Shown: in pieces, positions 17,911 to 36,878 of the stretch
Position numbering within the stretch: position 1 is the first letter of the stretch
Layout: every line of letters begins with the position of its first letter
Assembly (NCBI GenBank): GCA_017432345.1
Contig: JAFRJI010000035.1
Span: forward strand, 1-51,167
From: Bacillota bacterium
Lineage (GTDB): Bacteria; Bacillota; Clostridia; Peptostreptococcales; Anaerovoracaceae
DNA length: 51,167 bases
Reading direction: 5' to 3'
Translations under genes and position numbers: made by a program
Notes under the pieces: generated by a model
The model's database searches: none
What the model was told of the DNA's origin: nothing
The model's input: the letters and a program-made list of their open reading frames with translations, nothing else

Positions 17911-17926
17911 TTGTGTCATTTCGGTA

Positions 17927-17961
17927 TGTACTTTTGTGTACGAAAGTGGTACATTATATGT
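17927..17961 (+). promoter_or_regulatory. Hairpin and candidate promoter before the GGDEF gene
   Basis: TGTAC (17927-17931) pairs with GTACA (17949-17953), with an inner TTTTG/CGAAA stem. No T-run follows, so it is not a standard terminator. It overlaps possible promoter elements: TTGTGT (17934-17939), 16 bp, TATATG (17956-17961), or an extended -10 TGGTACATT. It may be an operator over the promoter of the gene cluster that follows. Confidence 0.35.
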
Positions 17962-18003
17962 AGTAAAAAAACTGGCAAGAGGCACCGACAGGAGTCCTGA
18001 AAA

Positions 18004-18696
18004 ATGAAAGAATTTAGTAAACTGAAAATCGTCCAGCTCATTGCTTTTCTGATCGTGACGATCATAGGTCTTGTGATCGTCTTCACCGATGACGAGTTGT
18101 ACCAGATGATAGGATTCTATTCCCACATCAGAATCCTGTGCATCATACTATGGGTGGCACTCGGGCTGTCCTTTATATTTATATTCCTGGATTACAGACT
18201 CGATTCCCAGCTGCGGCGGGAAAACGAGGAATTGAACTACGCGTTCTACACGGATCCGGATACAGGCGTTGCCAACAGGAACAGTTGTGATGCGTTCATC
18301 GATCAGTATACGAACAAGATCCTTCCGGAGGGAATGGCTGTTTTCACAGTACAAATCAGCAACCTGAAAGAAATCAACGATACCCTTGGGTATGAAAAAG
18401 GCGATGCTGAGATTTCGGCCTTTGCGGATATCCTTCAGAGCATTACTGCGAAAGGCGACTTTCTGGGAAGAAACGGCGGCGATAAATTTATTATCATTCT
18501 TAAAAAGTGTAACAGGGACGACCGTGATAATCTGATTTCGCGAATCCACAAGGCAGTGGACGACCGGAATACGACGGTGCCTGAAGAGGAGCGGCTGCAG
18601 TTCCATATCGGAGCAGCACTGCAGGTAGAGTGTCAGGCGAAGACAATGCACAATTTGGTTGCGATCTCCGACCGAAGAGCTATGGAGGCAAGCTAA
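18004..18696 (+). CDS. Membrane protein with a degenerate GGDEF domain
   Basis: The 230-residue protein has two membrane helices (about 9-27 and 43-62), a short coiled linker, then a GGDEF-type domain (about 80-225). DPDTGVANRN and KEINDTLGYEKGD keep the diguanylate cyclase framework. However, the signature is GGDKF (158-162) instead of GGDEF, and both metal-binding Asp residues of the usual DxDxFK strand are replaced (Gln117, Ser119). The upstream RxxD inhibitory site lacks its Arg. Catalysis is therefore unlikely. A role as signal receiver or protein partner is more likely (inference). The gene precedes an ECF sigma factor by 33 bp and probably shares its operon. Confidence 0.85.
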   Translation: MKEFSKLKIVQLIAFLIVTIIGLVIVFTDDELYQMIGFYSHIRILCIILWVALGLSFIFIFLDYRLDSQLRRENEELNYAFYTDPDTGVANRNSCDAFIDQYTNKILPEGMAVFTVQISNLKEINDTLGYEKGDAEISAFADILQSITAKGDFLGRNGGDKFIIILKKCNRDDRDNLISRIHKAVDDRNTTVPEEERLQFHIGAALQVECQAKTMHNLVAISDRRAMEAS

Positions 18697-18729
18697 GGCG
18701 GGCCCGATAGCGAGTGGGAGGTGAGCAGT

Positions 18730-19293
18730 TTGAGTGCATTGGATTACAATTACCTGGCGAATCTGGTTCGTAAAGCGCAGGCAGGTGACAACAACGCCTT
18801 CGCGGAGATTTATATTGCGACCTATCAGCAGCAATATCGCTATGCGTATAAATATCTGAGAGATGAACAACTGGCGCAGGACGCACTGCAGGAGACCTTT
18901 GTCCAGGCACTTCGCCATATCCGTATGCTGAAAAGTCCGAAACTGTTTCTCGCTTGGCTGAACCGTATCAATTTCCGGACATGCTTTGATCTTGAAAAAA
19001 AGAGAAAACTGGAGCAGCAGCAAGACCTCGCTGAAGGGAAACTGGACGGGATCCGTTCCGAACTCGGTAGACCGGAAGACGAGGTCATTGCCATAGATTC
19101 CCGTCAGTACATCATGAAACAGGTCCTGGAGCTTCCGTTGACAGAAGCACAAGTGATCGTAATGAAGTACTACCAGCATATGACGAATGACGAGATAGCA
19201 GAAGTCATGAACATCAGCCGAAGCACTGTGAAACGATACCTGAAAGCAGGGAGAGAGCATCTCTCCCAAATGCTTTTTGAATTCAGGGCTTAG
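18730..19293 (+). CDS. ECF-type RNA polymerase sigma factor
   Basis: The 187-residue protein has sigma region 2 (about 15-85, with DALQETFVQALRHI and the LAWLNRINFRTCFD helix) and region 4 (about 130-180, with LTEAQVIVMKYY and a helix-turn-helix NDEIAEVMNISRSTVKRYL). Region 3 is absent, as in ECF sigma factors. TTG at 18730 is preferred as start because GGGAGGTGA lies 7 nt upstream. An in-frame GTG at 18721 would overlap that site. It sits between a membrane GGDEF-like protein and a membrane protein that looks like its anti-sigma factor, upstream of surface-protein genes it may control. Confidence 0.88.
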   Translation: MSALDYNYLANLVRKAQAGDNNAFAEIYIATYQQQYRYAYKYLRDEQLAQDALQETFVQALRHIRMLKSPKLFLAWLNRINFRTCFDLEKKRKLEQQQDLAEGKLDGIRSELGRPEDEVIAIDSRQYIMKQVLELPLTEAQVIVMKYYQHMTNDEIAEVMNISRSTVKRYLKAGREHLSQMLFEFRA

Positions 19294-19309
19294 AAGAAGG
19301 TGACGTGAA

Positions 19310-20035
19310 TTGGGAAAGAATGCAACAATCAATAATGAGCCAAAGATCGATGCCCTGACAGCCACCAAGGTGCTGGCAGATGTTTTTGATGAGATCGACG
19401 CACAGCCGAACACGATACCGGTAGAAGCTCTGGCAGGATATCAGGATTTCAAGCGCAAACGCTTTATTCCTCAGCAGATCCTCCTGATCTTCATCATTGT
19501 CTTGTGGCTGCTCGTTCCTCTGTTCTTCATTCCTCCGAAGTATGAGATCCAGCAGGTCAGCATGAATGACCAGAATCTGCCGGTCTACACCGTGAAAGTG
19601 GATTCGTTCCTGCCGGTCAGACAAGTCGAAGCGGCACTGAACGGGGAACCGATCCAGGTCTATGCGAAGGACAGCAAGACATATGCGGTCGAACCGTCAC
19701 AAAATGGCAGGATGGAGATCAAAGCTACTGGCATTAACCGGCAGATCACGACCAGAAGTGTTGACGTAACGGAAGTAGACGACATGGGTCCGAAGCTTAT
19801 TTCAAGCGAGATCGATAACGAGCACATCTATTTGCAGATGGCCGAAAACGGAACCGGTGTCGCATACGAGAACATCTATGCGGTCGGACAAAAAACAGGG
19901 GAAATCGTTACCCCGGAACAGTATGATAAGGAGAATGGAACGATCATATTCCTGATCCCTGAGAAAGGGAAGTGGGATGTGTATATCCCTGATAAGAGAG
20001 GCAATGCCCTGCATCTGTCGATAGAAATGGAGTAA
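19310..20035 (+). CDS. Single-pass membrane protein, probable anti-sigma factor
   Basis: The start is TTG, with AAGGTGA 5 nt upstream, 16 bp after the sigma gene. The 241 residues divide into a cytoplasmic part of about 50 residues, one strong membrane helix (about 55-75, QQILLIFIIVLWLLVPLFF), and an extracytoplasmic part of about 165 residues rich in beta-strand pattern. This part reads like two small Ig-like domains (VDSFLPVRQVEAALNGEPIQ; then ISSEIDNEHIYLQM...GKWDVYIPDKRGN). Position and layout are those of anti-sigma factors co-encoded with ECF sigma factors. No ZAS or other named domain is recognised, so the role is inferred from context. Confidence 0.7.
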   Translation: MGKNATINNEPKIDALTATKVLADVFDEIDAQPNTIPVEALAGYQDFKRKRFIPQQILLIFIIVLWLLVPLFFIPPKYEIQQVSMNDQNLPVYTVKVDSFLPVRQVEAALNGEPIQVYAKDSKTYAVEPSQNGRMEIKATGINRQITTRSVDVTEVDDMGPKLISSEIDNEHIYLQMAENGTGVAYENIYAVGQKTGEIVTPEQYDKENGTIIFLIPEKGKWDVYIPDKRGNALHLSIEME

Positions 20036-20059
20036 TAAGGAAAGAAAAGAAAGAAAATC

Positions 20060-20081
20060 AACGAATCATGAGCCATTCGTT
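20060..20081. promoter_or_regulatory. Palindrome AACGAAT-N8-ATTCGTT
   Basis: A perfect 7-bp inverted repeat with an 8-bp centre, in the 111-bp gap between the probable anti-sigma gene and the next small membrane protein gene. No T-run follows, so an operator is likelier than a terminator. Further on, GGAAAC (20106-20111) resembles an ECF -35, but the matching -10 would be too close to the ATG to be convincing. Confidence 0.4.
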
Positions 20082-20146
20082 CGCCTAGTAACGTCATATT
20101 ATGTAGGAAACTATAACTGCATAATTAACGAATAAGGCGGACAACT

Positions 20147-20599
20147 ATGAAAATGAATAGTCCTATGAAAAGAATTACAGAGATTCTGCTGATTGCCTTA
20201 CTGGTGATCGGCGGGGTCTTTTTTGTTCCGTTGAGCGATGGAAACTCTCAGGCGGAACAGAAACCAGGAGACGATCCTGTCGTTCTTCAGAACGAAGAGG
20301 GCGATGAAGTCGTCATCGACGTCGAAGAGGAACTTCCGGCGGACAGCCAAGCGCTGCAGGAACAGCAAAAAGCTGCAGGGATCGTGGAGATGGAGGAAGA
20401 CGGCGTTCCTCTGGCCGGGTTTGACCCGGTAGTCGCGGGAAAAGACAATGGCGATGTCCATTTGATCTGGATGCTGCTGCTGCTCATCGCGGCAATCGCG
20501 TACGTCATCCATTTCAGCCGTTATCAGAACAGGATCTTTGATCTGCGAAGAAAAATAGCAGATGCAGAGTATGAAGTGAGAAAAGGAGGAAACCAATGA
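20147..20599 (+). CDS. Exported two-helix membrane protein with a VPL motif
   Basis: The 150-residue protein has an N-terminal signal-like helix (about 11-28), an acidic extracytoplasmic stretch of about 75 residues, and a second helix (about 105-123). A charged cytoplasmic tail (RYQNRIFDLRRKIADAEYEVR) follows. Just before the second helix it has EEDGVPLAG (84-91). The giant protein of this cluster has DDGDVPLIT at the same place relative to its membrane segment. AAGGCGG lies 6 nt before the ATG. The gene overlaps the next one (ATGATGA). I do not recognise a family. A role in export, anchoring or assembly of the surface protein is inference from synteny and the shared motif. Confidence 0.8.
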   Translation: MKMNSPMKRITEILLIALLVIGGVFFVPLSDGNSQAEQKPGDDPVVLQNEEGDEVVIDVEEELPADSQALQEQQKAAGIVEMEEDGVPLAGFDPVVAGKDNGDVHLIWMLLLLIAAIAYVIHFSRYQNRIFDLRRKIADAEYEVRKGGNQ

Positions 20600-20748
20600 T
20601 GACGAATATTCTGGCGATACTCCTTGGAGCAATCACGATCTTACTTCTGGCCGTCTTTCGCGTTACACAGAAGAAACGGAAAGCGGCATTCCGGGAAGAA
20701 CTGATCGAACGGTACCGGGAAACGGATAGACAGGAGGAGGAATCATGA
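20596..20748 (+). CDS. 50-residue single-pass membrane protein
   Basis: The first ATG (20596) overlaps the upstream stop codon, and a second ATG follows at once. GGAGG lies upstream. The product has one N-terminal helix (about 4-21, NILAILLGAITILLLAVF) and a strongly charged cytoplasmic-type tail (TQKKRKAAFREELIERYRETDRQEEES). It overlaps the next gene by 4 bp (ATGA). The unbroken chain of overlaps on both sides supports a real gene. The family is unknown. Confidence 0.75.
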   Translation: MMTNILAILLGAITILLLAVFRVTQKKRKAAFREELIERYRETDRQEEES

Positions 20749-20924
20749 TAGGTATATATATGTGGGACATCTTTCCTATCCTTGCAATCATTGCGCTGAT
20801 CATTGCGTGCATCGTCAAGCAGCGCTCCATGAAGAGAGAGGAAGAGGAATTGCAAGAAGTGCTTGCATCTTTAACAGCAGAGAGAACGATCGATTCAGAG
20901 GAAAAAACCAATGAAAATCAATAA
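20745..20924 (+). CDS. 59-residue single-pass membrane protein
   Basis: The start has GGAGGAGG 5 nt upstream and overlaps the previous stop codon. One helix (about 9-24, IFPILAIIALIIACIV) is followed by KQRSMKREEEELQEVLASL, a probable short amphipathic or coiled helix, and an acidic tail. Its layout mirrors the 50-residue protein before it, so the two may be paralogues or partners. Its last 14 bp overlap the start of the giant surface-protein gene, which implies coupled translation. The family is unknown. Confidence 0.75.
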   Translation: MIGIYMWDIFPILAIIALIIACIVKQRSMKREEEELQEVLASLTAERTIDSEEKTNENQ

Positions 20925-23900
20925 AGTATTAGCAAAAAAAATCATCGCCTGCATGCTGACCATAGCCATGGTGCCTACGCTGGTCCCATCCGTTTCATGG
21001 GCGGAAGACGACGATGGCGGCGGAGACGCCCCGGCACAGGTTGAAGAACAGGAAACGAAAAAACCGGAACAGGAACCGGCACCGGCACCTGCGCCTGCTC
21101 CGGAACCTGCTCCTGCGCCTGCACCGGAACCGGAACCGGAAGCGCCTTCCAGCGATGAAGAACCTTCGGCTGAAACAGAGAGCGATGATTCAGAGATGAC
21201 CGAAGAAATGCAGGAAGAGGAAGCCCTGGAAGAGGAAGAAGAAGAACTCAAGAAACCTGCGGCGTCATTTTCAGATAGCGCCGGCGGCATTGCCGTCAAA
21301 GTGAGCGCGCCGGCAGGAGCCCTTCCGGAAGGGACCAAGATGAAGGTCAGTGGCGTTTCTTCTTCACAGGCTAAAAGCATAGCACAAAGAGCCGTCGGTG
21401 ACGAAGGCAAAATACGCGACGCAAAGGGCGTAGATATCAGCTTCTACGACAAAGACAACCATAAAATAGAGCCGGAAAAAGCACTGACTGTTACGCTCTC
21501 AGGAGCAGGCGTCCGCGGAAACGACCCGGCGATCTACCATCAGGGAGCCGGCGGTACAGAAAAAATCATGTCTTTGAGTTCCGGCAATGGAGGGACCTTC
21601 CACTCATCGGATTTCTCCATCTATGTCGTAGCGGCAGAATACTATACCGTCCAGTTCAGGATGGATGAGGATGACGGTGGGATGCTTTTGTCACAGATCG
21701 TTGATCTCAGTGATGGAGATCACATTTCACCGATGCCGGACAAACCGTTTAAAGCCGGAGCCCGATTCGTCAAGTGGGTCGACAGTGCGACAGGTGAAGA
21801 AGTCAACGGGAGTACAGTCGTTACCGGTGACATGGTAGTCTATGCAGTTTTCGAAGAAATCAAAGTCTATGAACTGACCATTGACTACTATTATCATAAC
21901 CCGAAGACCCACGAGAAGGTCGTATTCTTCACAAAGAAGGAGCAGATCGAACGCAGGGATATGCCGAAAGAGATCGCATCTCCTGCCTCCACAAGTGTAG
22001 AAGAAACGGGGGCTTCCGAAGACAACATATATTATCCGAAAGTACCGGTCCTCACGATCACAGAAGAAGATCTGAACGATGTGGTCAACATCAATGATGA
22101 AGGGCATGGCGTCTTCACGAAAGAAGTCGAATACGTACCATATGATACGCATTATTATTTCGTGTACCTTTTGAAGAATAAAGACGGAGAAGGTTACACC
22201 GAAGTCGAGCGGGAAGAAAAGAACGGCATTGCGGGGACGAACGTGACACCGACCGTCAAGAACATAAAGGGAGGAGAGTTCGAAAAAACAGAAACACAGC
22301 GCATTACGAAAGAGGGACAGGAACTCAACGTTTACTATACGCGCACGGATTATACACTGACCTTTGACAGTCAGGGAGGGGCATATGTTGAACCGGAGAC
22401 GGCTCCATATGAGAGCGATGTCAACATCACCGGCAAGATTCCGCAGCGCAGCGGTTACGATTTTGTCCAGTGGTGTCTGGACCCGGAAGGCAAACAGCCT
22501 GCCGGCAATACGGTGCGGCTGGATTCCGACAAGACCCTCTATGCTTCCTGGAAAGAGAAACAGGTCAATTACACCGTTATCTACCAGATTGAGAATGCAG
22601 ACAACGAAAACTATTCCTATCTGACGAGCCAGACAAAGAAAGCGCTTGTCGGAACGTCGGTCACCGTGACGGCCAGCGACACAGCACCGGCAGCTTTGGA
22701 TAAGAACAATTTCACATTCAAGGAATCAACGACGGCGACCGTAAAAGGCGATGGATCCACTGTCGTTACGGTCAAGTACAGCCGAAACGTATACACGATC
22801 GTCTGGAATGGTGATGTATATAACACCAGCGGCAAACGCAGAGCACAGAAGCAGGGAAGCGGAAGCATCACGGGCAAATACGGCTCGAACATTACGCAGA
22901 AATGGGTAGCCGCGTTCAATGACCCGTACCCGGAGTATGCCTGGAGCTTTACGACAAAGAACAATGACAAGATCATCAGCATCGATACTATGCCGGGCAA
23001 AGGGGAAGTGACCGTCAACAACGGAACGATCGCGTTGAATGCGTTTGATTTTTCGACGACCAAAACGCAGGTGCTGAATTACTGGCTGGAAAACTACGAC
23101 GGGTCAAGCAGCACGACGAGAGACGGCAAGACGTATGGCCTATACAAGACCGTGACCGGCAAATTCAATTACCTCTACGATGACGCGGATTTCTACAACA
23201 TTATCGGATACACCAAGGACGGATATCAGGCGTCGTACGTCTCGAAAGGAAAAACATACAGTTACACCTTGGGAAGCTCAACGCCGAGTGCCGAACTCAA
23301 TGTTAACTTCTATTATGCCGCAAACAGCTACCCGCTGGCATTTTATGACTATGACGGTAGCCTGATCAGTACGAATCAGGTCAAACTGAATGATGATATT
23401 TCCGGCTACCTCAGCAGCAACAAACCGGCCTCACCGGTTGCCGGGGCGCAGTGGCTGGGATGGTTCACGGATTCCGAGCACACCGATCTGTATAAAGGCA
23501 ATCAGAAGATGACGACCGGTCTGGCGCTCTATGCCGGATGGGAAATGCCGAAGGAAACCATAACGTTCGTTGATATTCTGCCGGATGGAACGGAGAAAGT
23601 ACTGGCGGAAGTTACCTATTCTTACGGAGAAACGGCGGAAGCGATCAATCAGCCGGCAGCACGAGAAGGATACGTATTCCAGGGCTGGGCCACGGATAAA
23701 GATGGAACGGCGCGCTACGATTTCGACCGTCCGATGACGGAGAATGTCACCGTTTATGCCCGATGGAAGCAAAAGACCCTGGGATATACCGTCCGTTACA
23801 TAGACGAAAAGAGCGGTGAAGAACTGTCAGATCCGAAGATCGTCATGGGACCTCTTTATAAAGTGGGCGATGTCGTCAAGGAATCGCCGGTAGATCTTGC

Positions 23901-26900
23901 CGGCATGCTTCCGGATCAGAGCAGCAAAGAGCTGACTCTGACGATGGATAATGACCGGAATGAGATCTTATTCAGCTACACAAAGAAGAAGAGCGAGATC
24001 ACATATACCGTGCGATATGTTCTTGATGAAGATGAGAGCGTTGAAGTGGCACCATCCAAGACTAAAACGGTGTCCGGTGACATGATCAGCGTCAAGGAAT
24101 CAGCGGCAGCCGTTAACAGGGAGTATATGGATGAGAAATACGCGGCGAACGAGTATTATCCGATCGAAGAAGTCATCCACCACACGTTCTCTTCCGGCGA
24201 GAATATCATCACGTTCCGGTATGCATCCTACAGGACGACCAATTTTATCATCCGCTATCTGGACATGGAAGATAACGCACTCAAGGGAGAGGAAACATAT
24301 CTGACAAAAATAGGGGGCTCCTACAGAGTCCAGACCCAGATTCCGGGGTACACTTTCAAGTATGTCGTCAAGAACGGAACGGATACTTCGAGGAGGGTTA
24401 CTTACCATGCGACAGACGCCGGGACTACCGAACTCAATGTTTACTTCAGCAAAGATCTTGTAATCAGCGCAAAGAGCCTGAAGAAAGTCTATGACGGAAC
24501 AGAGCTGAAGAGTGAAGGAACGGGAGCGACCGTCGTTGAAACTGATGGCCTGTCATCAGGACACAGCCTGACCGGCCTTACCTGGGAAGGCAGCCAGACA
24601 AATGTCGGGACCAGCGCTACGGTACCGAGCAACGCGGTGATATCCGGTGCTCCTGAGGATTACTACGATATTACTTACGTACCGGGCACACTGACCGTTA
24701 CAGCATCATCGGTCGTTGTCACCATCGAAGGGGATAAGATCGATACAGCTTATGACGGCAAGGTCCATACCGCGACCTATCATGTAACAGGTATATCCGA
24801 TCCGCAGTTCAAGGAAAAATATATCCAGTTCAACGGAACCGCGGCGGAGGCATCTCAAACGCATGTAGGCAGAAGCGATCTGATATTGGACGGCATGTTC
24901 TCAACGATCCGGGAGCAGGCCGGGAACTTTGATGTAACCTATAATGCTACCGACGGTTACGTGAGCGTCACGCCGAAGACAGCGACCGTCCATACTAGTT
25001 CCGCGGAGAAAGTCTATGACGGTAAGCCGCTGACGTCCCATGTCGAAGGGACCGGGGAGAATGCCGACTGGGTCGAAGGCCTTGTAGAAGGTGAAACGGC
25101 GGTCATAGAGAAAAACACGGGAAGCAGGACGAAGGTCGGTACCAGTGAAAACTATTATGATGCGATCATCTGGCAAACCGCTCAGGAAAGTGACTACACC
25201 CTCAAGTTCGACATGGGTCATTTGACAGTCACAAAAGCACCGCTGACGATCACAGCCAAAGACATCACTGCGGAATATGACGGCACAGCCAAAGGCCCGA
25301 AGGCGCAGATGGAACAAGAAGGCGTATCCTTGCAGGATCTGATCGAAACAAAGGGCCTGGCAGAAGGCGATACGGTCACAGCACTTACCCTGAGCGGCAA
25401 AGCGACCGACGCTGGGACTTATGCGGATCGCATCGTTCCTTCGGAAGCTTTAGGAAACGATGGGCAGAGTCTGGATGATAATTACGACATCACCTACGTT
25501 CCGGGCACGATCACCATTACACCGAGAGACGTTACGATCACAGCCGGGAGCAAAGCCTTTGCATATGATGGCAAAACGCACACCCTCCCGGAATATGAAG
25601 TCGACGGGCTCGTGGGCGACGACAGCATCGAAGCGGCGATTACCGGCAGCATCAAGCTGCCAAAGGACGGGACGGTTGCCAACCATGTTGAATCCTATGA
25701 ATTCACGACCGGCAATCCTTCCAATTATAAGGTTCGGACGATCGACGGCGCTTTGACGATGACAAAGGCGCAGGCAGAGATAACGATCGAAGGAAATAGT
25801 AAAGAATGGACATTCGATGGCGAAGCGCACCACAGCAGCAAAGTCAACGTCACTGAAGGCGAACTGTTTGAGGGCGACCGGCTCATTGCGAATGCGTCGG
25901 GAAGCGTCACGAATGTTGCTGATACAGAAGCTGGGAACAATCCGGTCGCGGAAGGCTGGAAGATTGTTCACGGCGAAGAGATGGAAGACGTAACGGAGAA
26001 TTATGCGGTAACCGTCAAAGCAGGAACACTGACGATCCTGCCGAAAGAGGCTACCGTGACGGCCGGAAGCGAAACGTTCAAATACGATGGCAAGGAGCAT
26101 TCCAACAACGTTTATACGGTCCGCGGACTTGCGGGCGAGGATGAGATCACTGCCAGAACAAGCGGAAGCATCCGGTTCCCATCACAGAGTCCGGTGGAAA
26201 ATGTGATCCTTTCGTGGGAAATGACGAAGGGTGATGTTTCCAATTATGAGGTATCCCTTGTCAGCGGAAGCCTGACGATGGATCCTGCCCAGACGGAAAT
26301 CACGATCCGCGCGGCGGATGATGTCTGGACCTATGATGGCAAATCGCACAGCAACCCTGAAGTCGTGGTGAGCAAGGGTACGCTGGTCGAAGGAGATGAG
26401 CTGATCGCAGAAGCGGACGGCAGCGTTACGGACGTATCGGATACAGCAGAAGGAAACAACCGGATCAAAGAAGGTTACCGGATCGTGCATGACGGAACAG
26501 ATGTGACGGACAACTATGTGATCACAGAAGCCGCCGGCACGCTGGAGATCCGGAAGCGTCCGGTCAAGATCACAGCCGCCAGCGAAGAATTCACTTATGA
26601 CGGGCAGACGCACAGCCTGCCGGAATACCGCACAGAGGGCTTGGTCGGGGATGACAGCATTGAAGCCATTATTCTCGGAAGCATCACCTGGCCGCGCCAG
26701 AGATCTGTCGAAAACAAGATCACGGCATATCATTTCGTTGAAGGGAACCCTGATAATTACAGTGTAACGACAATCAACGGCGTTCTGACGATGAAGAATG
26801 CGCAGGTCCCGATCACCATTGAAGCAGGCACGCAGACATGGACTTACGACGGGCAGCCGCACAGTTTGCCGGACGTCCTGATCACAGAAGGCCAGCTGTT

Positions 26901-29900: not shown

Positions 29901-32900
29901 CAGCCAGTCCTGGACCTATGACGGAAGCGAGCATTCCAACGGAGACGTTGCAATCACTTCCGGCAAACTCTTTAACGGAGACCGGCTCATTGCGGAAGCT
30001 GAAGGCAGCGTAAAGGACGTATCCGATACAGCGGCCGGAAATAATACGATCAAATCTTACCGTATCATGAACGGCACGGAAGATGTCACCGATAATTATG
30101 CGGTCACAGAAGCAGCCGGTACACTTACCGTCGAGCCGGCGCCTCTGACAATTGAAGCGGCAAGCGAGACCTTCACCTATGATGGGGAAGAACACAGCAA
30201 CGGCAGCTATGAAGTCAGGGGACTTATTGGAGATGACAGTGTGACCGTCAATGTTACAGGAACGATACAGTTCCCGGCGCAGGGCGTCGTGACGAATCGG
30301 GTCGAATCCTATGCATTCAAAGAAGGCAAGGCAGACAACTACGCTGTCAAGACCATAAACGGGGTTTTGCAGATAGATAAAGCAGAACGGGAAATCACCA
30401 TCAAAGCGGACAACGGAAGATTTACCTATGACGGTGCGGAGCATACGGCACCGGGCGTGACTGTATCTGACGGACGGCTGTTCAGCGGTGATGAACTGGT
30501 CGCGGAGGCCGATGGCGCGGTGACCAATGTCAGAGATACGGCAGAAGGAAACAATCCGATCAAGCCGGGATACAAGATCATGCATGGCGAGGAAGACGTA
30601 ACAGCCAACTATGTGATCCGGCTCGAGGAAGGGACGCTCACCGTGGATCCGGCGCCGGTAACGATAACGGCCGGAAGTGATTCGTTCGTCTATGACGGAA
30701 CGGATCACAGCAACAGCAGTTATGATGTTCAGGGACTGGCGAGCGGAGATGAAGTGACAGCGGTAACGGAGGGAACGATAACATATGTTTCCCAGAGCCC
30801 TGTACGAAATGTGATCAAGCAATACTTCTTCACGATCGGAACAGAAGATAACTATACCGTTACAACGAAGCCAGGCAAGTTGACCATGGACAAGGCCAGC
30901 CAGCCGATCACCATTACAGCAGCGAGCCAGACATGGACCTACGACGGTGAGGCGCACAGCAATCCGTCTGTCGGGATCACGGCAGGCAGCCTGATGACGG
31001 GAGACCGGCTGATCGCAGAGGCGACTGGATCCGTTACGGATGTCGCGGACAGCCACAAAGGCAATAACGGAATCGCCAATGACTATAAAGTCATGAACGG
31101 CGAAGAGGATGTTACAGACAATTATATTATCGATACGGAGGAAGGTGATCTGACCATACTTCCTGCAGCCGTAACAATCACGGCGGACAGCGAAGAATTC
31201 ACCTATGACGGGGCGCGCCATTCCAATCAGGGTTATCAGACGGAAGGCTTCGTCGGCGGTGATACGATCAACGCAACGACGACAGGATCCATCCAGTTCC
31301 CAAGTGAAGGTGTCGTTGCGAACCGGATCGATTCCTACGAATTTACAAAGGGCACAGCGGAGAACTATACGGTCAAACTGGCTGCCGGCCAGTTGACGAT
31401 GCTGCCGTCACAGGCACCGTTGACGATCACAGCGGCGAGCCAGACGTGGACATTCGATGGAGAAGCGCATGAAAACAGCGGCGTCAGCATTACCTCTGGA
31501 CAATTGTTCACCGGAGATGAACTGGTCGCGGAAGCGTCAGGCAGTGCGACAAATGTTGGAGATACGAATTTCGGAAACAACCGCGTTTCCTCGTACAGGA
31601 TCCTTCATGGGGACGAAGATGTGACCGCATGCTATGCGGTCCGTACGGAAGGGGGAACCCTGACGATCGAACCAAAAGCAATCTTTGTCAAAGCACAGGA
31701 CAAAGTCTTTGCATATGATGGCACGGAGAAGACCTGGCCGTACTATGATGTTACAGGCTTGGTGGGAGGAGACAGTATCAAGGCAACGGTCGAAGGTGCG
31801 ATCACCTATCCGGGCGTGCATCCGGTCGCGAATGTTGTCACATCTGTCAAGTTCATCTCAGGCGATGAAAACAACTATATCGTGAATACGCAGAACGGTT
31901 CTCTGAGCATGACCAATGCGGAGGCGGAGATCACGGTACAGTCGGCTTCACAGGCATGGATCTATGATGGGGAAGTCCATAAGAACGACCAGGTGGAACT
32001 GACTGCTGGAACGCTCTTTGCGGGAGACCGGTTGGTGGCAGAAGCCGGTGGATCCGTGACCAATGTGACAGATACCGAAACCGGGAACAACACAATCACA
32101 GATTGCAAGATCATGCACGGAAAGGAAGACGTGACGGCAAATTACGCCATCACGAAAGAAGCAGGAACACTTACGATCCTGCCGAAGTCCGTTGCGGTCA
32201 TTGCGAAAAACAAAACGTTCACATATGACGGAACAGCACATAGTTACGCGAAGTACGATGTGACCGGCCTCATTGGGGAAGATGCGATCAAGGCAACGGT
32301 CGAAGGATCGATCACCTATCCGGATGAGGGAGAGGTGGCCAACCGAGTCACCGATTACTCCGTCACAGAAGGAATCGCTGATAACTACAAGATCACCGCG
32401 GAAGACGGGATCCTGACGATGAAGACGGCAAACGAACCGATCACGATCACCGCGGCTTCGCAGGGCTGGACATACGATGGCCAGATGCATGAGAATACCA
32501 GAGTGACGCTGACAGAGGGCAAACTCTTTGAAGGAGACCGTCTGGAAGCGGCCGCAGGCGGCAAGGTCACGAATGTTGCCGACACAGAGGACGGGAACAA
32601 TCCGGTAATTAGCGGATACAGGATCATGCACGGACAGCATAATGTCACGGCGAACTATAAGATCGAAGCAGTTGCGGGTACGTTGAGCATTGAACCAAAA
32701 GCCGTCACAGTGACCGCCAACAGTCATCACTATGTATATGACGGGATGGCTCACAGCGACAATGGTTTCGATGTGGTCGGGCTCGTAGGTGATGACACGA
32801 TCGACGCGGAAGTGACAGGGACCATAACGCTGCCTGGACAGAGCCCGGTCACCAACAAGCTGGCCAACTGGACGATCCGGAATGGAGACAAGTCCAATTA

Positions 32901-35900
32901 CGATGTTTCCGTCAAAAACGGAGAACTGACCATGGAAACGTCGGCGGCTCCGCTGACCATCAAGGCGGCTGACGGCAAATGGACCTACGACGGAACGGAG
33001 CACAGCAAGAACAAGGTCAGCATTGTATCCGGCAAACTCTTTGAGGGCGACACCCTTGAGGCTGCTGCCGAAGGCTCGGTTACAAACGTGGCCGATACAG
33101 CGGAAGGGAACAATGCGATCGCGGAAGGCTGGCGGATCATGCATGGTGACGAAGATGTTACCGCCAACTATGTCGTCGAAACGCTGAACGGAACGCTTAC
33201 TGTCGAACCGGCCCCTGTAACGATCACAGCGGCCAGCAGAACGTTCACCTATGATGGAGAAGTCCACAAAGACGGAAGCTATGATGTGGACGGACTGATC
33301 GGGGAAGATGCCATTGAGGCGGTCGTCAGCGGATCGGTCTGCTATCCGCAGGAAGGCACAGTCGTCAACGAAATCGAATCATGGGAGGTCACGGCGGGAG
33401 AAAAGACCAACTATACCGTTGCAGCCGTGAACGGAACATTGAAGGTAGAAGAAGCCGAAGTGCCTTTGACCATCGAAGCGGCCAGCCAGGCATGGACGTA
33501 TGACGGACGGACTCACCATAACAGTGAAGTTACAATAAAGGAAGGCAAACTGCTCAATGGAGACACACTGATCACCGAAGTCAAAGGCAAGGTGACCAAT
33601 GTGGCCGATACGAAGAACGGCAACAACAAGATCACATCTTATCAGATCCTGCACGGGAACATGGATGTGACAGATAACTATCGGATCACGGCAATCAACG
33701 GAACACTGACGATCAATAAGAAGGCGGCGGTCCTCCGTGCGCAGGACAAAGTCTTCGTCTATGATGGAACCGAGAAGACATGGCCGGAATACGATGTTTC
33801 CGGGCTGATTGGAGAAGATGCCATTGAAGCGGTCGTAAGCGGCGCCGTGACATATCCGAAGGAAGGCGCTGTTCCGAATAAAATCACGGAATGGAGCTTC
33901 ACGAAGGGCGATGAAAACAACTACCAGGTCGATGTACAAGACGGACAGCTGACGGTAGTCCGTGCCGAAGCGGAGATCACGATCACAGCGGCCAGTCAGA
34001 CCTGGACCTATGATGGAAACGCCCATGATGCTCCTGAGGTCAAGCTGACCGAAGGAAAACTCTTTGATGGGGATTCTCTGATCGCATCTGCGGAGGGCAG
34101 CGTTACAGATGTTGCCGATACCAAGGCAGGAAACAATGTGGTCAGCGAATACAAGATCATGCATGGAGAAGAGGATGTAACAGACAACTATGCTGTTACG
34201 GTAGTGGACGGAACGCTGAGCATTGATCCGGCGCCGGTGACAATCCGAGCAGCCAGTGACGAGTTTACGTATGACGGGCAGCCGCATCAGAACGACGCGT
34301 ACAAAGTAGAAGGCCTGATCGGCGAAGATGAAATCAAAGCCGTTGTTACCGGAACGATCCTGTTCCCTTCACAGTCATCCGTAACCAACAAGGTCGCTTC
34401 TTATGAATTTGTGACCGGCAAGGCCGGAAACTATACCGTCAAAACCATCAACGGCGAGTTGACGATGAAGACTGCGGAAGAGGCGCTGACGATCCGCGCG
34501 GCGGATCAGTCGTTCACATACGATGGAGAAAAACATGATGCCAAGACTGTAATGGTAACGGAAGGAGCGCTTCTGCCGGGCGATGAACTGGTTGCTCAGG
34601 CGATGGGTTCGGTGACGAATGTGGCCGATACCGAAAAAGGAAATAATCCGGTGGCAGAAGGTTTCAAGGTCATGCATGATGGTGAGGACGTAACAGACAA
34701 CTATACGATCACACCGGTGGCGGGAACGCTGTCCGTAGAACCTGCAGCGGTAACCATCACGGCAGGCAGCAAAGAGTTTGTATATGATGGGACAACGCAC
34801 GAATACGCGAAGTACAAGGTCGAAGGCCTCGTCGGGGAAGACAGCATCGATGCAGTGATCAAGGGAGAGATAACCTTTGCTTCCCAAAAGAGTGTGGCCA
34901 ATGTAGTAGACTCATACGAATTCACAAGAGGTGAACCGTCGAACTATAAGGTCAGCACCGTTGATGGCCTGCTGACCATGGCCTTTGCGAAGAATGCCAT
35001 TACGATCACAGCCGGAAGCGGCCACTGGATCTACGACGGAGAGGCTCACAGCAAGAAGAAGGTTTCCCTGACAGAAGGAACTTTGTTCGAGGGAGATGAA
35101 CTTGTGGCGAAGGCGGCCGGCAGTGCAACGGATGTGGCGGATACGAAGGCGGGCAACAACCCGGTCGCGAAGGGATATAAGATCCTTCACGGGGAGGAGG
35201 ATGTTACCGATAACTACGTGATCACCGCGAAGAGCGGCACGTTGAGCATCGAACCTGCGGAAGTCATCGTCCGCGCGAAGGACGGAGTCTTCACATATGA
35301 CGGAGAGCCGCACAGCGAGAAGGGTTATTCCGTGGAAGGCCTGTTCGGAGACGATGCCATCACCGCGGTGACCAGCGGAACGATCACTTATCCGAGCAGC
35401 AGCGGCGTCAAGAATGTTCTGGAATCTTATGAGTTCACGAAGGGAAATCCGGACAACTACATTGTCCGGCTCGTGGATGGAACACTGACGATGAACGCTG
35501 CCGAAGCAGCTTTGACTATAACGGCGGCCAGTGAGACGTTCGAGTACGATGGCACCGTGAGAACAAACGATGAAGTTACAATAACGAAGGGAACTTTGCT
35601 CCGGGGAGACACGCTTAAGGCAGTGGCGGTCGGCGCCGTAAAGGACGTCGCGGATTCGAAGGCCGGAAACAATCCTGTGGGAGAAGGCTACAGGGTCCTC
35701 AACGGCGGTGAAGATGTTACTGCCAACTACGTCATTACAACGGAAGCAGGAACGCTGACGGTTGAACCGAGACCGGTCACGATCCGGGCGGAGAGCGAGA
35801 CGTTCGATTATGACGGAAACGCGCACTTCAATCCGGGATATGACGTGGAAGGTCTGGTCGGAAATGACGTGATAGAAGCAATCGTAACAGGTTCGATCAG

Positions 35901-36681
35901 TCACCCGGATCAGAATCCGGTCGTGAACCAGATTACGGGATATCGATTCATCGTTGGAAACGAAGAGAATTATGTAGTGACCGTGGAAGACGGCGAATTG
36001 AGGATGAACGACGTTCCGATCCACGACCTGATCGTTCACTATGTGGATCTGAATGACAAGACGGTGGCGGAGGATTATTCCGGCTCTTATGCGGAAGACA
36101 CAGATTACGGTCCGATCAATTCACCGGAGGTCAAGGGTTATACACCAGAGTACCGCGCCGTATATGGCAAGATGGAACGTGAAGACATCGAGCTGAAGGT
36201 CAAGTACAAGCAGGTAAAGGCGGAAGAGACAGGCAGAATCGCACAGCAACAGCCGCCGCTCGGACTGGTCACGTCGAATGACAACGGAAAACCGACGATC
36301 CAGATACTGGACGATGGAGATGTTCCGCTCATCACGGATGAAGGGCATTGGGCGTTGCTGAATCTGCTGTTCATGCTGCTGACAGTGCTCTGCAGTCTGC
36401 TGCTGTTGGTATTCTGGTTTGTCCGCGGACGCAAACGCGAGGACGGTTCGGAGGAAAAGAAAAAGCGGCATGGGCTGCTCAGACTGCTGGGACTCATTCC
36501 TGCAGCCGCGGCAGCGATACTGTTCTACCTCACAGAGGACATGACGCTGACGATGGTCCTCACTGACCAATGGACGATCGCGATGATATTCCTGTTGTTC
36601 GTGGAATTTATCGTGATGATCCTCGTGAAATCGCGCGGCGATGATAACGAAGAGGAACAGGAACAGCCCAAAGAGGCCTAG
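20911..36681 (+). CDS. Giant MBG/YDG-repeat surface protein, 5256 aa
   Basis: In order: a signal peptide (about 1-31, cleavage likely after SVSWA), a Pro/Ala/Glu-rich low-complexity stretch (about 45-115), and a beta domain (about 120-240). InlB/Listeria-Bacteroides-type repeats follow (about 245-317, 478-550, 805-880, 882-955), then MucBP-like segments (about 957-1180). Four YDG-type modules (about 1185-1539) and 41 alternating MBG-type modules (about 1540-5034) come next, then one last MucBP-like segment. The C-terminus has three membrane helices (about 5148-5172, 5192-5212, 5222-5244) and an acidic tail. No LPXTG motif is seen; VPLITDEGHWALLNLL precedes the first helix. The reading frame is intact over 15.8 kb. 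It is probably a stalk-like adhesin on the cell surface (inference). Translation is probably coupled to the small gene it overlaps. Confidence 0.93.
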   Translation: MKINKVLAKKIIACMLTIAMVPTLVPSVSWAEDDDGGGDAPAQVEEQETKKPEQEPAPAPAPAPEPAPAPAPEPEPEAPSSDEEPSAETESDDSEMTEEMQEEEALEEEEEELKKPAASFSDSAGGIAVKVSAPAGALPEGTKMKVSGVSSSQAKSIAQRAVGDEGKIRDAKGVDISFYDKDNHKIEPEKALTVTLSGAGVRGNDPAIYHQGAGGTEKIMSLSSGNGGTFHSSDFSIYVVAAEYYTVQFRMDEDDGGMLLSQIVDLSDGDHISPMPDKPFKAGARFVKWVDSATGEEVNGSTVVTGDMVVYAVFEEIKVYELTIDYYYHNPKTHEKVVFFTKKEQIERRDMPKEIASPASTSVEETGASEDNIYYPKVPVLTITEEDLNDVVNINDEGHGVFTKEVEYVPYDTHYYFVYLLKNKDGEGYTEVEREEKNGIAGTNVTPTVKNIKGGEFEKTETQRITKEGQELNVYYTRTDYTLTFDSQGGAYVEPETAPYESDVNITGKIPQRSGYDFVQWCLDPEGKQPAGNTVRLDSDKTLYASWKEKQVNYTVIYQIENADNENYSYLTSQTKKALVGTSVTVTASDTAPAALDKNNFTFKESTTATVKGDGSTVVTVKYSRNVYTIVWNGDVYNTSGKRRAQKQGSGSITGKYGSNITQKWVAAFNDPYPEYAWSFTTKNNDKIISIDTMPGKGEVTVNNGTIALNAFDFSTTKTQVLNYWLENYDGSSSTTRDGKTYGLYKTVTGKFNYLYDDADFYNIIGYTKDGYQASYVSKGKTYSYTLGSSTPSAELNVNFYYAANSYPLAFYDYDGSLISTNQVKLNDDISGYLSSNKPASPVAGAQWLGWFTDSEHTDLYKGNQKMTTGLALYAGWEMPKETITFVDILPDGTEKVLAEVTYSYGETAEAINQPAAREGYVFQGWATDKDGTARYDFDRPMTENVTVYARWKQKTLGYTVRYIDEKSGEELSDPKIVMGPLYKVGDVVKESPVDLAGMLPDQSSKELTLTMDNDRNEILFSYTKKKSEITYTVRYVLDEDESVEVAPSKTKTVSGDMISVKESAAAVNREYMDEKYAANEYYPIEEVIHHTFSSGENIITFRYASYRTTNFIIRYLDMEDNALKGEETYLTKIGGSYRVQTQIPGYTFKYVVKNGTDTSRRVTYHATDAGTTELNVYFSKDLVISAKSLKKVYDGTELKSEGTGATVVETDGLSSGHSLTGLTWEGSQTNVGTSATVPSNAVISGAPEDYYDITYVPGTLTVTASSVVVTIEGDKIDTAYDGKVHTATYHVTGISDPQFKEKYIQFNGTAAEASQTHVGRSDLILDGMFSTIREQAGNFDVTYNATDGYVSVTPKTATVHTSSAEKVYDGKPLTSHVEGTGENADWVEGLVEGETAVIEKNTGSRTKVGTSENYYDAIIWQTAQESDYTLKFDMGHLTVTKAPLTITAKDITAEYDGTAKGPKAQMEQEGVSLQDLIETKGLAEGDTVTALTLSGKATDAGTYADRIVPSEALGNDGQSLDDNYDITYVPGTITITPRDVTITAGSKAFAYDGKTHTLPEYEVDGLVGDDSIEAAITGSIKLPKDGTVANHVESYEFTTGNPSNYKVRTIDGALTMTKAQAEITIEGNSKEWTFDGEAHHSSKVNVTEGELFEGDRLIANASGSVTNVADTEAGNNPVAEGWKIVHGEEMEDVTENYAVTVKAGTLTILPKEATVTAGSETFKYDGKEHSNNVYTVRGLAGEDEITARTSGSIRFPSQSPVENVILSWEMTKGDVSNYEVSLVSGSLTMDPAQTEITIRAADDVWTYDGKSHSNPEVVVSKGTLVEGDELIAEADGSVTDVSDTAEGNNRIKEGYRIVHDGTDVTDNYVITEAAGTLEIRKRPVKITAASEEFTYDGQTHSLPEYRTEGLVGDDSIEAIILGSITWPRQRSVENKITAYHFVEGNPDNYSVTTINGVLTMKNAQVPITIEAGTQTWTYDGQPHSLPDVLITEGQLFDGDELVAEGTGEVINVADTRAGNNPIADGYRIMRGDEDVTANYVITAVPGTLMIQKKDLSITANSEVFTYDGLLHENTGYEVEGLEGNDKVKAVVSGSITLPSQSPVENRLVSWEFINGDADNYRVTTENGELIMERASIGITITAGDMDFTYDGTAHENNTVTVTAGELLPGDVLSAQAIGMVTNVADSEEENNPVAEGYRILHDGQDVTDNYRILVKAGTLTVKPKAVTIKAQDKAFVYDGKKKTWDGYDVDGLVGEDQIEAKTKGSITYPREGSVENKIDSWEFVTGDPDNYTVSTQSGWLTMAKADAAITIEAASDEWIYDGGVHGNNKVSIVEGELIEGDQLEAEAVGSVTNVADTNVGNNPVAEGWKITNDGKDVTENYAVTVKAGTLTVRPKTVTVTASSQEFTYDGTSHSSAGYDVEGLVGTDHISATVRGSITYPGQSPVVNELESWTMTAGIAENYTVAKADGELTMKDASEPVTITAASQAWTYDGEAHDNAAVTVTEGSLLPGDELIAEAGGSVTDVADTEDGNNPVQEGYRIMHGNVDVTASYVITTQAGTLTITPKPVTVTAASQTFAYDGTTHRNGEYRVDGLVGDDAIEAVVTGAITTPGQSPVVNKLKSWEFTKGTPENYEVTTEDGKLTMETASAPITIKAADQRWVYDGKTHQNDEVTILSGKLFEGDELVAKAEGSVTNVADTGNGNNPVAAGYKIMHGEEDVSDSYVITTVNGTLTIDPRPVTVTASSKEFTYDGRTHKSQDFQVEGLVGEDAIEADVIGSITYPSESPVNNKLAGYRFKTGEPGNYSVSLRDGQLTMKQAKAPITITAASQEWTYDGEAHSNSDVALTAGELFEGDTLEAEAGGTVRNVADTKEGNNGIDYFRIMHGTVDVTDNYEITAENGTLTINRQKATLKAQDKTFAYDGTAKSWPGYDTYGLIGNDMINAETTGTITYPGTTVINRILTWNFAVGDENNYEVTVEDGQLTMTKGEAEITITAASQSWTYDGSEHSNGDVAITSGKLFNGDRLIAEAEGSVKDVSDTAAGNNTIKSYRIMNGTEDVTDNYAVTEAAGTLTVEPAPLTIEAASETFTYDGEEHSNGSYEVRGLIGDDSVTVNVTGTIQFPAQGVVTNRVESYAFKEGKADNYAVKTINGVLQIDKAEREITIKADNGRFTYDGAEHTAPGVTVSDGRLFSGDELVAEADGAVTNVRDTAEGNNPIKPGYKIMHGEEDVTANYVIRLEEGTLTVDPAPVTITAGSDSFVYDGTDHSNSSYDVQGLASGDEVTAVTEGTITYVSQSPVRNVIKQYFFTIGTEDNYTVTTKPGKLTMDKASQPITITAASQTWTYDGEAHSNPSVGITAGSLMTGDRLIAEATGSVTDVADSHKGNNGIANDYKVMNGEEDVTDNYIIDTEEGDLTILPAAVTITADSEEFTYDGARHSNQGYQTEGFVGGDTINATTTGSIQFPSEGVVANRIDSYEFTKGTAENYTVKLAAGQLTMLPSQAPLTITAASQTWTFDGEAHENSGVSITSGQLFTGDELVAEASGSATNVGDTNFGNNRVSSYRILHGDEDVTACYAVRTEGGTLTIEPKAIFVKAQDKVFAYDGTEKTWPYYDVTGLVGGDSIKATVEGAITYPGVHPVANVVTSVKFISGDENNYIVNTQNGSLSMTNAEAEITVQSASQAWIYDGEVHKNDQVELTAGTLFAGDRLVAEAGGSVTNVTDTETGNNTITDCKIMHGKEDVTANYAITKEAGTLTILPKSVAVIAKNKTFTYDGTAHSYAKYDVTGLIGEDAIKATVEGSITYPDEGEVANRVTDYSVTEGIADNYKITAEDGILTMKTANEPITITAASQGWTYDGQMHENTRVTLTEGKLFEGDRLEAAAGGKVTNVADTEDGNNPVISGYRIMHGQHNVTANYKIEAVAGTLSIEPKAVTVTANSHHYVYDGMAHSDNGFDVVGLVGDDTIDAEVTGTITLPGQSPVTNKLANWTIRNGDKSNYDVSVKNGELTMETSAAPLTIKAADGKWTYDGTEHSKNKVSIVSGKLFEGDTLEAAAEGSVTNVADTAEGNNAIAEGWRIMHGDEDVTANYVVETLNGTLTVEPAPVTITAASRTFTYDGEVHKDGSYDVDGLIGEDAIEAVVSGSVCYPQEGTVVNEIESWEVTAGEKTNYTVAAVNGTLKVEEAEVPLTIEAASQAWTYDGRTHHNSEVTIKEGKLLNGDTLITEVKGKVTNVADTKNGNNKITSYQILHGNMDVTDNYRITAINGTLTINKKAAVLRAQDKVFVYDGTEKTWPEYDVSGLIGEDAIEAVVSGAVTYPKEGAVPNKITEWSFTKGDENNYQVDVQDGQLTVVRAEAEITITAASQTWTYDGNAHDAPEVKLTEGKLFDGDSLIASAEGSVTDVADTKAGNNVVSEYKIMHGEEDVTDNYAVTVVDGTLSIDPAPVTIRAASDEFTYDGQPHQNDAYKVEGLIGEDEIKAVVTGTILFPSQSSVTNKVASYEFVTGKAGNYTVKTINGELTMKTAEEALTIRAADQSFTYDGEKHDAKTVMVTEGALLPGDELVAQAMGSVTNVADTEKGNNPVAEGFKVMHDGEDVTDNYTITPVAGTLSVEPAAVTITAGSKEFVYDGTTHEYAKYKVEGLVGEDSIDAVIKGEITFASQKSVANVVDSYEFTRGEPSNYKVSTVDGLLTMAFAKNAITITAGSGHWIYDGEAHSKKKVSLTEGTLFEGDELVAKAAGSATDVADTKAGNNPVAKGYKILHGEEDVTDNYVITAKSGTLSIEPAEVIVRAKDGVFTYDGEPHSEKGYSVEGLFGDDAITAVTSGTITYPSSSGVKNVLESYEFTKGNPDNYIVRLVDGTLTMNAAEAALTITAASETFEYDGTVRTNDEVTITKGTLLRGDTLKAVAVGAVKDVADSKAGNNPVGEGYRVLNGGEDVTANYVITTEAGTLTVEPRPVTIRAESETFDYDGNAHFNPGYDVEGLVGNDVIEAIVTGSISHPDQNPVVNQITGYRFIVGNEENYVVTVEDGELRMNDVPIHDLIVHYVDLNDKTVAEDYSGSYAEDTDYGPINSPEVKGYTPEYRAVYGKMEREDIELKVKYKQVKAEETGRIAQQQPPLGLVTSNDNGKPTIQILDDGDVPLITDEGHWALLNLLFMLLTVLCSLLLLVFWFVRGRKREDGSEEKKKRHGLLRLLGLIPAAAAAILFYLTEDMTLTMVLTDQWTIAMIFLLFVEFIVMILVKSRGDDNEEEQEQPKEA
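24463..25527 (+). repeat. Four YDG-type modules in the giant protein gene
   Basis: Four diverged modules each carry YDG in their first third: KKVYDGTELKSEG, DTAYDGKVHTATY, EKVYDGKPLTSHV and TAEYDGTAKGPKA. They precede the regular MBG array and are longer and less alike than its units. They may be the older, capping part of the stalk. Confidence 0.75.
25528..36012 (+). repeat. Array of 41 alternating MBG-type modules (21 A, 20 B)
   Basis: A modules (about 82 aa) read like TITAxSxxFxYDGxxH...GLVGxDxIxAxVxGSITYPxxxxVxN...NYxVxTxxGxLTM. B modules (about 88 aa) read like ITITAASQxWTYDGxxH...VTxGxLFxGDxLxAEAxGSVTNVADTxxGNNPxxxGYxIMHGxEDVTxNYxITxxxGTLTI. They alternate strictly A-B-A-B and the array ends on an A. 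The mean module is about 256 bp and a pair about 512 bp. At the DNA level the copies are well diverged, so this is an old array and not a recent tandem expansion. Confidence 0.88.
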
Positions 36682-36713
36682 ATGACGGACAAAAAGCGAT
36701 AACCGTTTAAGAA

Positions 36714-36746
36714 GGGAGAATCGAACAGATCGATTCTCCCTTTTTG
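36714..36746 (+). terminator. Terminator of the giant-protein gene
   Basis: A perfect 11-bp stem, GGGAGAATCGA with TCGATTCTCCC, a 5-nt loop (ACAGA), then TTTTTG. It lies 33 bp after the stop codon. Confidence 0.92.
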
Positions 36747-36780
36747 TTGAAATGAACCGTCCGGACAAGGGCCTTTATGA

Positions 36781-36786
36781 TATAAT
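36781..36786 (+). promoter_or_regulatory. -10 element TATAAT before the aminotransferase gene
   Basis: A perfect TATAAT, about 93 bp before the start codon. No convincing -35 lies at 16-18 bp. It would start the operon 36879-43391. Confidence 0.45.
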
Positions 36787-36878
36787 AATTTATGTATGGG
36801 TATAGGCCGATTCTGTAGGAGCAAGAGTGCTTCAGAAAACAGAAACGGCCTCGGAGAAATCGGAAAAGAGGTTTTGAA

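Follow-up and report, generated by a model that had tools for sequence, protein, structure and literature searches.

To our knowledge, little appears to be known about the control of very large surface repeat proteins in bacteria of this kind, and one locus raises the question of whether a run of genes that begins with an unusual GGDEF protein and ends with a giant repeat protein is a dedicated switch for surface display. The locus lies in the window, as we call the whole stretch of 51,167 nucleotides that was analysed, which is contig C20 of a 1.8-Mb genome assembly (G000) that is 82% complete. The sequence-only reading had described seven genes running in one direction, and all of them are present on the + strand in the order that it gave, forming a cassette at 18004-36681 (window ORFs). 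They encode a pseudo-GGDEF membrane protein (18004-18696), an ECF sigma factor with regions 2 and 4 (18730-19293), a single-transmembrane (single-TM) regulator of 241 aa that is a candidate anti-sigma factor (19310-20035), a 150-aa leader protein, Sm150 (20147-20599), two one-helix membrane proteins of 50 aa (20596-20748) and 59 aa (20745-20924), and a giant surface protein of 5256 aa (20911-36681). Our preferred reading, to which we give a probability of about 0.6, is that the cassette would be a dedicated surface-display switch in which a cyclase-dead GGDEF protein is the third component beside a sigma factor and a membrane regulator.

Conservation of the regulatory trio

The first three genes, here called the trio, were found in the order pseudo-GGDEF, ECF, regulator in all 31 loci fetched by way of the regulator. 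These loci represent 31 of the 34 matching genomes of the family, the window's included, the remaining three being weak or fragmentary; L015 and L066 are near-copies within the set. When a collection of 84,980 species was searched with one pseudo-GGDEF pattern, 101 relatives were obtained from 104 stretches, and the best 80 were kept. Among these best 80 of 101, ECF and regulator follow the pseudo-GGDEF in 73, the regulator adjoining the ECF as a separate gene in 50 loci and being fused to it in 23; the other seven loci have the ECF only (2), the regulator only (1) or neither (4). Judging by the record titles, the carriers span Lachnospiraceae, Oscillospiraceae, Erysipelotrichaceae and Mogibacterium, many of them from animal guts. 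Clostridiales VE202-21 and Faecalicatena contorta are among the cultured bacteria that carry the trio. The regulator alone gave no match in an initial scan of genome contigs. Of 61 genomes, 11 carry it, the window's among them; a profile detected it in 15 of 49 in the genus, 20 of 297 from the order and 34 of 349 in the family.

The proposal of a joint system would suffer if homologues of these genes lay apart elsewhere; instead, their order recurs across several bacterial families. It is thus very improbable that surface and regulatory genes are chance neighbours that merely share a location. The next gene downstream is unrelated, being the first of the aminotransferase genes that lie 3' of the cassette, as a chance association would lead one to expect, but the order is kept in several families with different flanks. 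The same holds for the small genes: the 50-aa gene overlaps the preceding Sm150 gene by 4 bp and the 59-aa gene overlaps the start of the giant, and in the close relatives L012, L013 and L063 counterparts of both are kept and the chain of overlaps is conserved. On this comparison, the cassette is real and not a local accident. Directly 5' of the trio lies a gene (14365-17910) that we take to encode a pyruvate:ferredoxin oxidoreductase-like protein, and a gene of the same kind directly precedes the trio in a distant Lachnospiraceae locus (L116:4580-8131).

The relatives show two layouts. In that of the window, the trio is followed by Sm150 and the giant, and in many relatives it is itself preceded by a gene for signal peptidase I. 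The second layout has a divergent giant, and its trio is followed by a transglutaminase-like lipoprotein and a T2SSF protein, then four small proteins, including a DUF4860 protein, and a PilT-family ATPase. Among the best 80 of 101 relatives, the lipoprotein and T2SSF (PilC) occur in 38, Sm150 in 17 and the signal peptidase in 46.

The GGDEF protein has lost its catalytic signature

We observed TM helices at residues 9-27 and 44-62 of the pseudo-GGDEF protein by hydropathy, followed by a GGDEF domain (Pfam, 2.4e-25). Its signature reads RNGGDKF, so that the catalytic Glu is a Lys. Lys or Arg stands at this position in all 31 homologues found via the regulator, that is, in a set that was not selected on the motif; their signature is RNGG[NDIS][KR][FY], and GG[DE]EF with the catalytic Glu was found in none of them. 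Among 92 nonredundant loci, mostly motif-selected, one head copy, in L109, reads RNGGSTF. The first metal-site Asp is replaced by Gln in the window protein, and some homologues keep Asp or Glu there. On these signatures, the pseudo-GGDEF is dead as a cyclase, as the sequence-only reading had held.

A protein that makes no c-di-GMP may still bind it, and the pseudo-GGDEF might be a receptor for c-di-GMP (or GTP) that couples a second-messenger pool to the sigma switch. We regard this alternative as doubtful. A ligand site may persist, since RNGG and an Asn at what we take to be a guanine-contact position are invariant across 18 aligned homologues and the window protein retains the second contact Asp; canonical R.GGDEF proteins are moreover encoded in the related genomes G017, G024 and G031. 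Against a receptor, 19 of 31 homologues have GN instead of GD at the second contact, and the I-site RxxD is missing in 11 of 11 aligned pseudo-GGDEFs, the window protein having AKGD without the I-site Arg. Some active diguanylate cyclases also have no I-site. A search of the window genome, an 82% complete assembly, for GGDEF and EAL domains gave two of the former, each of them degenerate, and none of the latter. Because all its GGDEF domains are degenerate and no EAL was found, the pseudo-GGDEF of the window organism probably works independently of c-di-GMP. The second degenerate domain (G000:C15:4280-4714, L216) belongs to what is presumably a polysaccharide chain-length-determinant-like membrane protein.

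The ECF sigma factor and its regulator

The ECF lies in an ORF at 18721-19293, and TTG at 18730 is favored as its start because of a ribosome-binding site and the N-termini of homologues. It matched Sigma70_r4_2 (9.2e-15) and Sigma70_r2 (2e-9) in Pfam and scored 78.2 bits with the NCBIfam sigma70-ECF model (cut-off, 42.9), which places it in the ECF superfamily; the nearest NCBIfam models, Sig70_famx3 and SigW, both stayed under their cut-offs. The regulator has one TM helix at residues 57-75 by hydropathy, and we presume its short N-terminal part to be cytoplasmic and its long C-terminal part to be extracellular. No Pfam or NCBIfam family and no anti-sigma model matched it, nor did a 35-row profile match PDB sequences. 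A stretch of about 50 residues N-terminal to the TM helix is conserved in the profile, and this stretch, together with the natural fusions to the sigma factor, argues for contact between regulator and sigma. The regulator is most likely the anti-sigma factor of the adjacent ECF.

Sigma and regulator are separate genes in the window and are fused in relatives only. In 25 of 92 nonredundant loci, they form a single ORF with the ECF first. The region 2.2 motif D..Q[ED] was found in 49 of 62 separate ECFs versus 0 of 25 fused ones (an earlier expression for this region, too narrow in places, had given 52 of 62 and 0 of 25); an expression for region 4 matched in neither class and was discarded. As several fused ECFs retain part of the region 2.2 motif, they are better called degenerate than lost. 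Three fusions (L077, L078 and L080) have no space for sigma region 4, and their sigma relatives therefore probably no longer drive transcription. In six further fusions, the regulator match starts before residue 130. On the pseudo-GGDEF tree (92 rows), the fused forms are clustered, and 6 changes are required to explain the fused state.

The regulator might instead act positively, as a co-factor or as a receptor that brings the sigma to a membrane-bound complex. Such a role, which we consider unlikely, would fit a protein in which no anti-sigma domain was recognised and whose natural fusions tether the sigma domain permanently. However, a sigma gene followed by a gene for a single-TM protein is a common sigma/anti-sigma layout, and the window shares it: an ECF with regions 2 and 4 and then a single-TM protein, as in known pairs of ECF and membrane anti-sigma factor. 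Known fusions also speak against the co-factor role: IutY of Pseudomonas putida (ECF243) is a sigma/anti-sigma fusion activated by proteolysis, and ECF48/52/53 fusions are expected to act by proteolytic release (PMC8999054). The fused relatives resemble these proteins in joining ECF and TM regulator in one polypeptide; unlike them, they lack D..Q[ED] and several have no room for region 4, and in the window the genes are separate.

A candidate ECF promoter before the surface genes

The trio is separated from Sm150 by a 111-bp gap (20036-20146). The perfect palindrome that the sequence-only reading noticed there is present as a 7-bp inverted repeat with an 8-nt spacer (AACGAAT-N8-ATTCGTT, 20060-20081, arms at 20060-20066 and 20075-20081), and a further half-site lies at 20127-20133. 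The repeat is not conserved in the aligned close relatives L012, L013 and L063, and it was not retained as a part of the system for that reason. These three relatives have a terminator-like hairpin in the gap before the leader gene, which the window does not have. Given this hairpin 5' of the leader gene, the cassette probably consists of two transcription units and not of one. An Rfam scan of 17500-37000 gave no RNA element at gathering scores, and a scan for sigma-70 promoters gave a count no higher than in shuffles.

We observed another element in the same gap, an ECF-type motif of the form TGAnCC-N17-nCnCTT (20069-20104, + strand). The window site has the -35 element TGAGCC (20069-20074), a 17-nt spacer and a -10-like CGTC (20092-20095); it scores 16.0 bits with a leave-one-out position weight matrix (PWM) and lies 78 nt before the 150-aa gene. 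In the aligned gap DNA, it has counterparts in L013 and L063 and a variant in L012; TGA[CG]CC stands at a fixed distance of 17 bases from a CGTC-like element in all four sequences, and in the three relatives the motif is placed behind the terminator-like hairpin. A TGAnCC -35 element with spacing of about 17 nt resembles ECF promoters. The suggestion that the sigma factor acts within 20036-20146 is thus backed by a conserved candidate promoter there.

Unbiased dyad counts gave the motif no prominence; it was recognised when aligned intergenic DNA and the surroundings of TGA[ACG]C were read. The PWM had 14 training sites picked by eye from loci that were scored later, and scoring was for this reason done leave-one-out. 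With a threshold of at least 12 bits within 400 bases, a site was found for 24 of 93 surface-type genes versus 8 of 1,002 others, in a comparison in which many assemblies are fragments and the surface-type class, defined by a hydropathy rule, takes in some proteins that are not giant surface proteins. The eight other genes are six Sm150 genes, one for a further signal-peptide protein and one PilT gene. With the training loci set aside, 16 of 80 surface-type genes had a site, as did 5 of the 887 other genes; L087 and L088 duplicate the training loci L067 and L068, and their removal leaves 14 of 78 surface-type genes. The same element precedes divergent giant genes. No site of at least 12 bits was found upstream of pseudo-GGDEF (106), regulator (91) or signal peptidase (55) genes. 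Autoregulation is usual for ECF systems, and the result for the pseudo-GGDEF genes means that there is no sign of it here.

Presence of the site follows the state of the sigma factor. Counted per locus, 28 of 45 with a separate ECF have a site, versus 0 of 18 with a fused one (Fisher p 2e-6, descent ignored). The other 17 separate-ECF loci have no 12-bit site before a surface or leader gene; among them, the site of L110 precedes a shorter signal-peptide protein and L012 has the variant. When loci were divided by the region 2.2 motif, 30 of 40 that have a D..Q[ED] ECF showed a site ahead of a surface or leader gene, versus 0 of 25 with a fused or motif-less one, again with descent ignored. Correction for descent on the pseudo-GGDEF tree (92 rows) left only 4 independent contrasts. 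Over random pairings, the contrasts in which the site agreed with the ECF state averaged 2.1 of the 4 for fusion and 2.9 for motif state, and none was contrary; the sign-test median p was 0.5 for fusion and 0.25 for motif state, which is not significant. The tie between site and ECF is consistent in direction, and the independent events are too few for proof.

A strict version of the motif was scanned for across the family (349 genomes). It occurred in 9 of 34 genomes that have the regulator and in 10 of 315 that lack it (Fisher p 1.3e-5, descent ignored); its reversed control gave 9 matches in the whole set. The regulator genomes contain 11 strict matches. Six of these are followed, at a distance of 54-164 nt, by a signal-peptide ORF; one of the six belongs to the trio locus, one lies about 10 kb away from it and four are on other contigs. 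Masking or a contig end prevented a judgement on two more, and the last three did not fit. None of the 10 strict matches in genomes without the regulator precedes a signal-peptide ORF of at least 200 aa. The window genome has no strict match. A loose pattern gave 47 matches versus 29 for its reversed control in 15 genomes, that is, 36 versus 23 in the 11 with the regulator and 11 versus 6 in the 4 without. Given the control count and the lack of a clear excess with the regulator, it is mostly background. Its two matches in the window genome are the window site and one within a gene. Reading of 38 of the 47 loose-match contexts showed strong sites before surface genes and some elsewhere. Two strong sites, L170 and L204, lie inside genes, and the genome of L204 lacks the regulator. 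Copies of a strong site, L194 and L197, precede an unrelated, conserved 370-residue gene in G017 and G067 that we take to encode a clamp-loader-subunit-like protein.

These counts bear on a further alternative, namely that the motif belongs to another regulator or sigma factor and that trio and surface genes are linked for a different reason, such as assembly. It gains from the trio itself not being under the motif, from pseudo-GGDEFs that head pilus-like genes in the absence of ECF and regulator (see below), from fused lineages that retain giant genes without the motif and from the small number of independent contrasts behind the tie to the ECF state. Nevertheless, the site tracks an intact, separate ECF and the tree offers no contrast to the contrary, genomes with the regulator are enriched in strict sites, and the -35 element and spacing are ECF-like. 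We therefore hold another regulator to be improbable and keep to the trio's own ECF as the sigma factor that would use the site.

Proposed mechanism and relation to known systems

Comparison of loci points to a dedicated switch through the linkage, the loss of the catalytic signature, the promoter motif before surface genes and the absence of this motif where the ECF is fused or degenerate. In the proposed mechanism, the single-pass regulator would hold the ECF sigma at the membrane, most likely as an anti-sigma factor. Once freed, perhaps upon an envelope signal such as the sequence-only reading suggested, the ECF would direct RNA polymerase to the promoter at 20069-20104 by direct contact, and the resulting transcript would run from the leader gene through those of both small membrane proteins to that of the giant. 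The pseudo-GGDEF would most likely bind sigma or regulator at the membrane and bias their contact, perhaps in a way that depends on a guanine nucleotide bound to it, without synthesis of c-di-GMP.

The candidate target promoter, with its TGAnCC -35 element and 17-nt spacer, is a further likeness to pairs of ECF and anti-sigma factor. Several features set the cassette apart from such pairs: its regulator matches none of the anti-sigma models, it opens with a conserved gene for a pseudo-GGDEF, it gives no indication of autoregulation, and its candidate regulon consists of surface proteins. A second comparison is with WhiG of Streptomyces, which is a sigma factor but not an ECF. The GGDEF domain of RmdB binds sigma-WhiG and keeps the anti-sigma RsiG off (PMC13232838), so that, as proposed here, a GGDEF-domain protein acts on a sigma/anti-sigma pair. 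RmdB is an active phosphodiesterase with an EAL domain, unlike the window protein, and its system has no membrane-anchored pseudo-cyclase gene beside an ECF gene. E. coli GGDEF proteins likewise act on a transcription factor by contact (PMC5635695). By analogy with RmdB and these proteins, we propose that the pseudo-GGDEF may act by contact.

A search of titles and abstract openings, with the subscription literature mostly outside it, gave no description of a pseudo-GGDEF/ECF/TM-protein module, and we do not claim its absence from print. The ECF-type promoter motif before surface genes is a new observation. With a defined regulator, a promoter sequence and species known by name, control of giant proteins could be tested, and the locus points to a pseudo-cyclase that may act on a sigma switch without making a second messenger. 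The natural decay of the sigma factor in fused lineages can moreover be compared with promoter loss.

Pilus-like genes as a possible second output

In many species, a pilus-like operon follows the trio (e.g., L016:7936-12664, L081 and L111), in which no PilB was recognised. A gene near related loci that was first labelled PilB proved to be a citrate synthase and lies outside the system. The window locus gave no profile match for type IV pilus genes, and a query with the L016 protein found no T2SSF/PilC relative in the window genome; such relatives are present in 8 of 13 genomes searched. In L129, L132 and L153, a pseudo-GGDEF directly heads pilus-like genes without ECF or regulator, and L109 has two pseudo-GGDEFs, one heading the sigma/giant module and one heading a pilus-like module. 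Because of these arrangements, there are hints that the pseudo-GGDEF could be an input common to giant and pilus-like outputs. L105 and L153 are contigs of one assembly, likewise with one pseudo-GGDEF per module.

A broader and tentative proposal is that clostridial envelope switches may include a new class, represented by the trio, in which an enzymatically dead relative of nucleotide cyclases has become the fixed third part of a sigma/anti-sigma device. It would have two outputs, giants by way of the ECF promoter and, through direct contact, a minimal pilus machine driven by PilT, and the sigma of fused lineages would be a membrane-bound part of this machine that does not transcribe.

The surface proteins and a shared C-terminal motif

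The last gene had been read as encoding an exported protein of 5256 residues, and a signal peptide was indeed found by hydropathy. The giant also has List_Bact repeats, 45 YDG repeats with a median spacing of 87 aa and a three-helix C-terminus (hydropathy); LPxTG is absent from it. Scanning of its two end pieces with Pfam gave the List_Bact family Flg_new (6.7e-28) and MBG_2 repeats, and its C-terminal end (36349-36654, + strand) scored 106.2 bits with NF052597 (cut-off, 40), which makes it by score a FILTED-domain protein and a member of the FILTED-domain/MBG-repeat surface proteins. The FILTED, MBG_2 and Flg_new models carry no regulatory information.

Sm150, which is conserved with the trio, has a signal peptide, an acidic linker, a VPLA motif and a C-terminal TM helix followed by a basic helix; neither it nor the 50-aa and 59-aa proteins gave anything above the Pfam cut-off. 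An acidic [VI]PL motif shortly before the C-terminal TM and basic helix is common to Sm150 and several giants. It was found in 22 of 23 Sm150 proteins, which were chosen by a profile that covers this stretch, and in giants at the end of the window protein and in L093, L109 and L124. On its position and recurrence, this motif may be an unrecognised sorting or processing signal.
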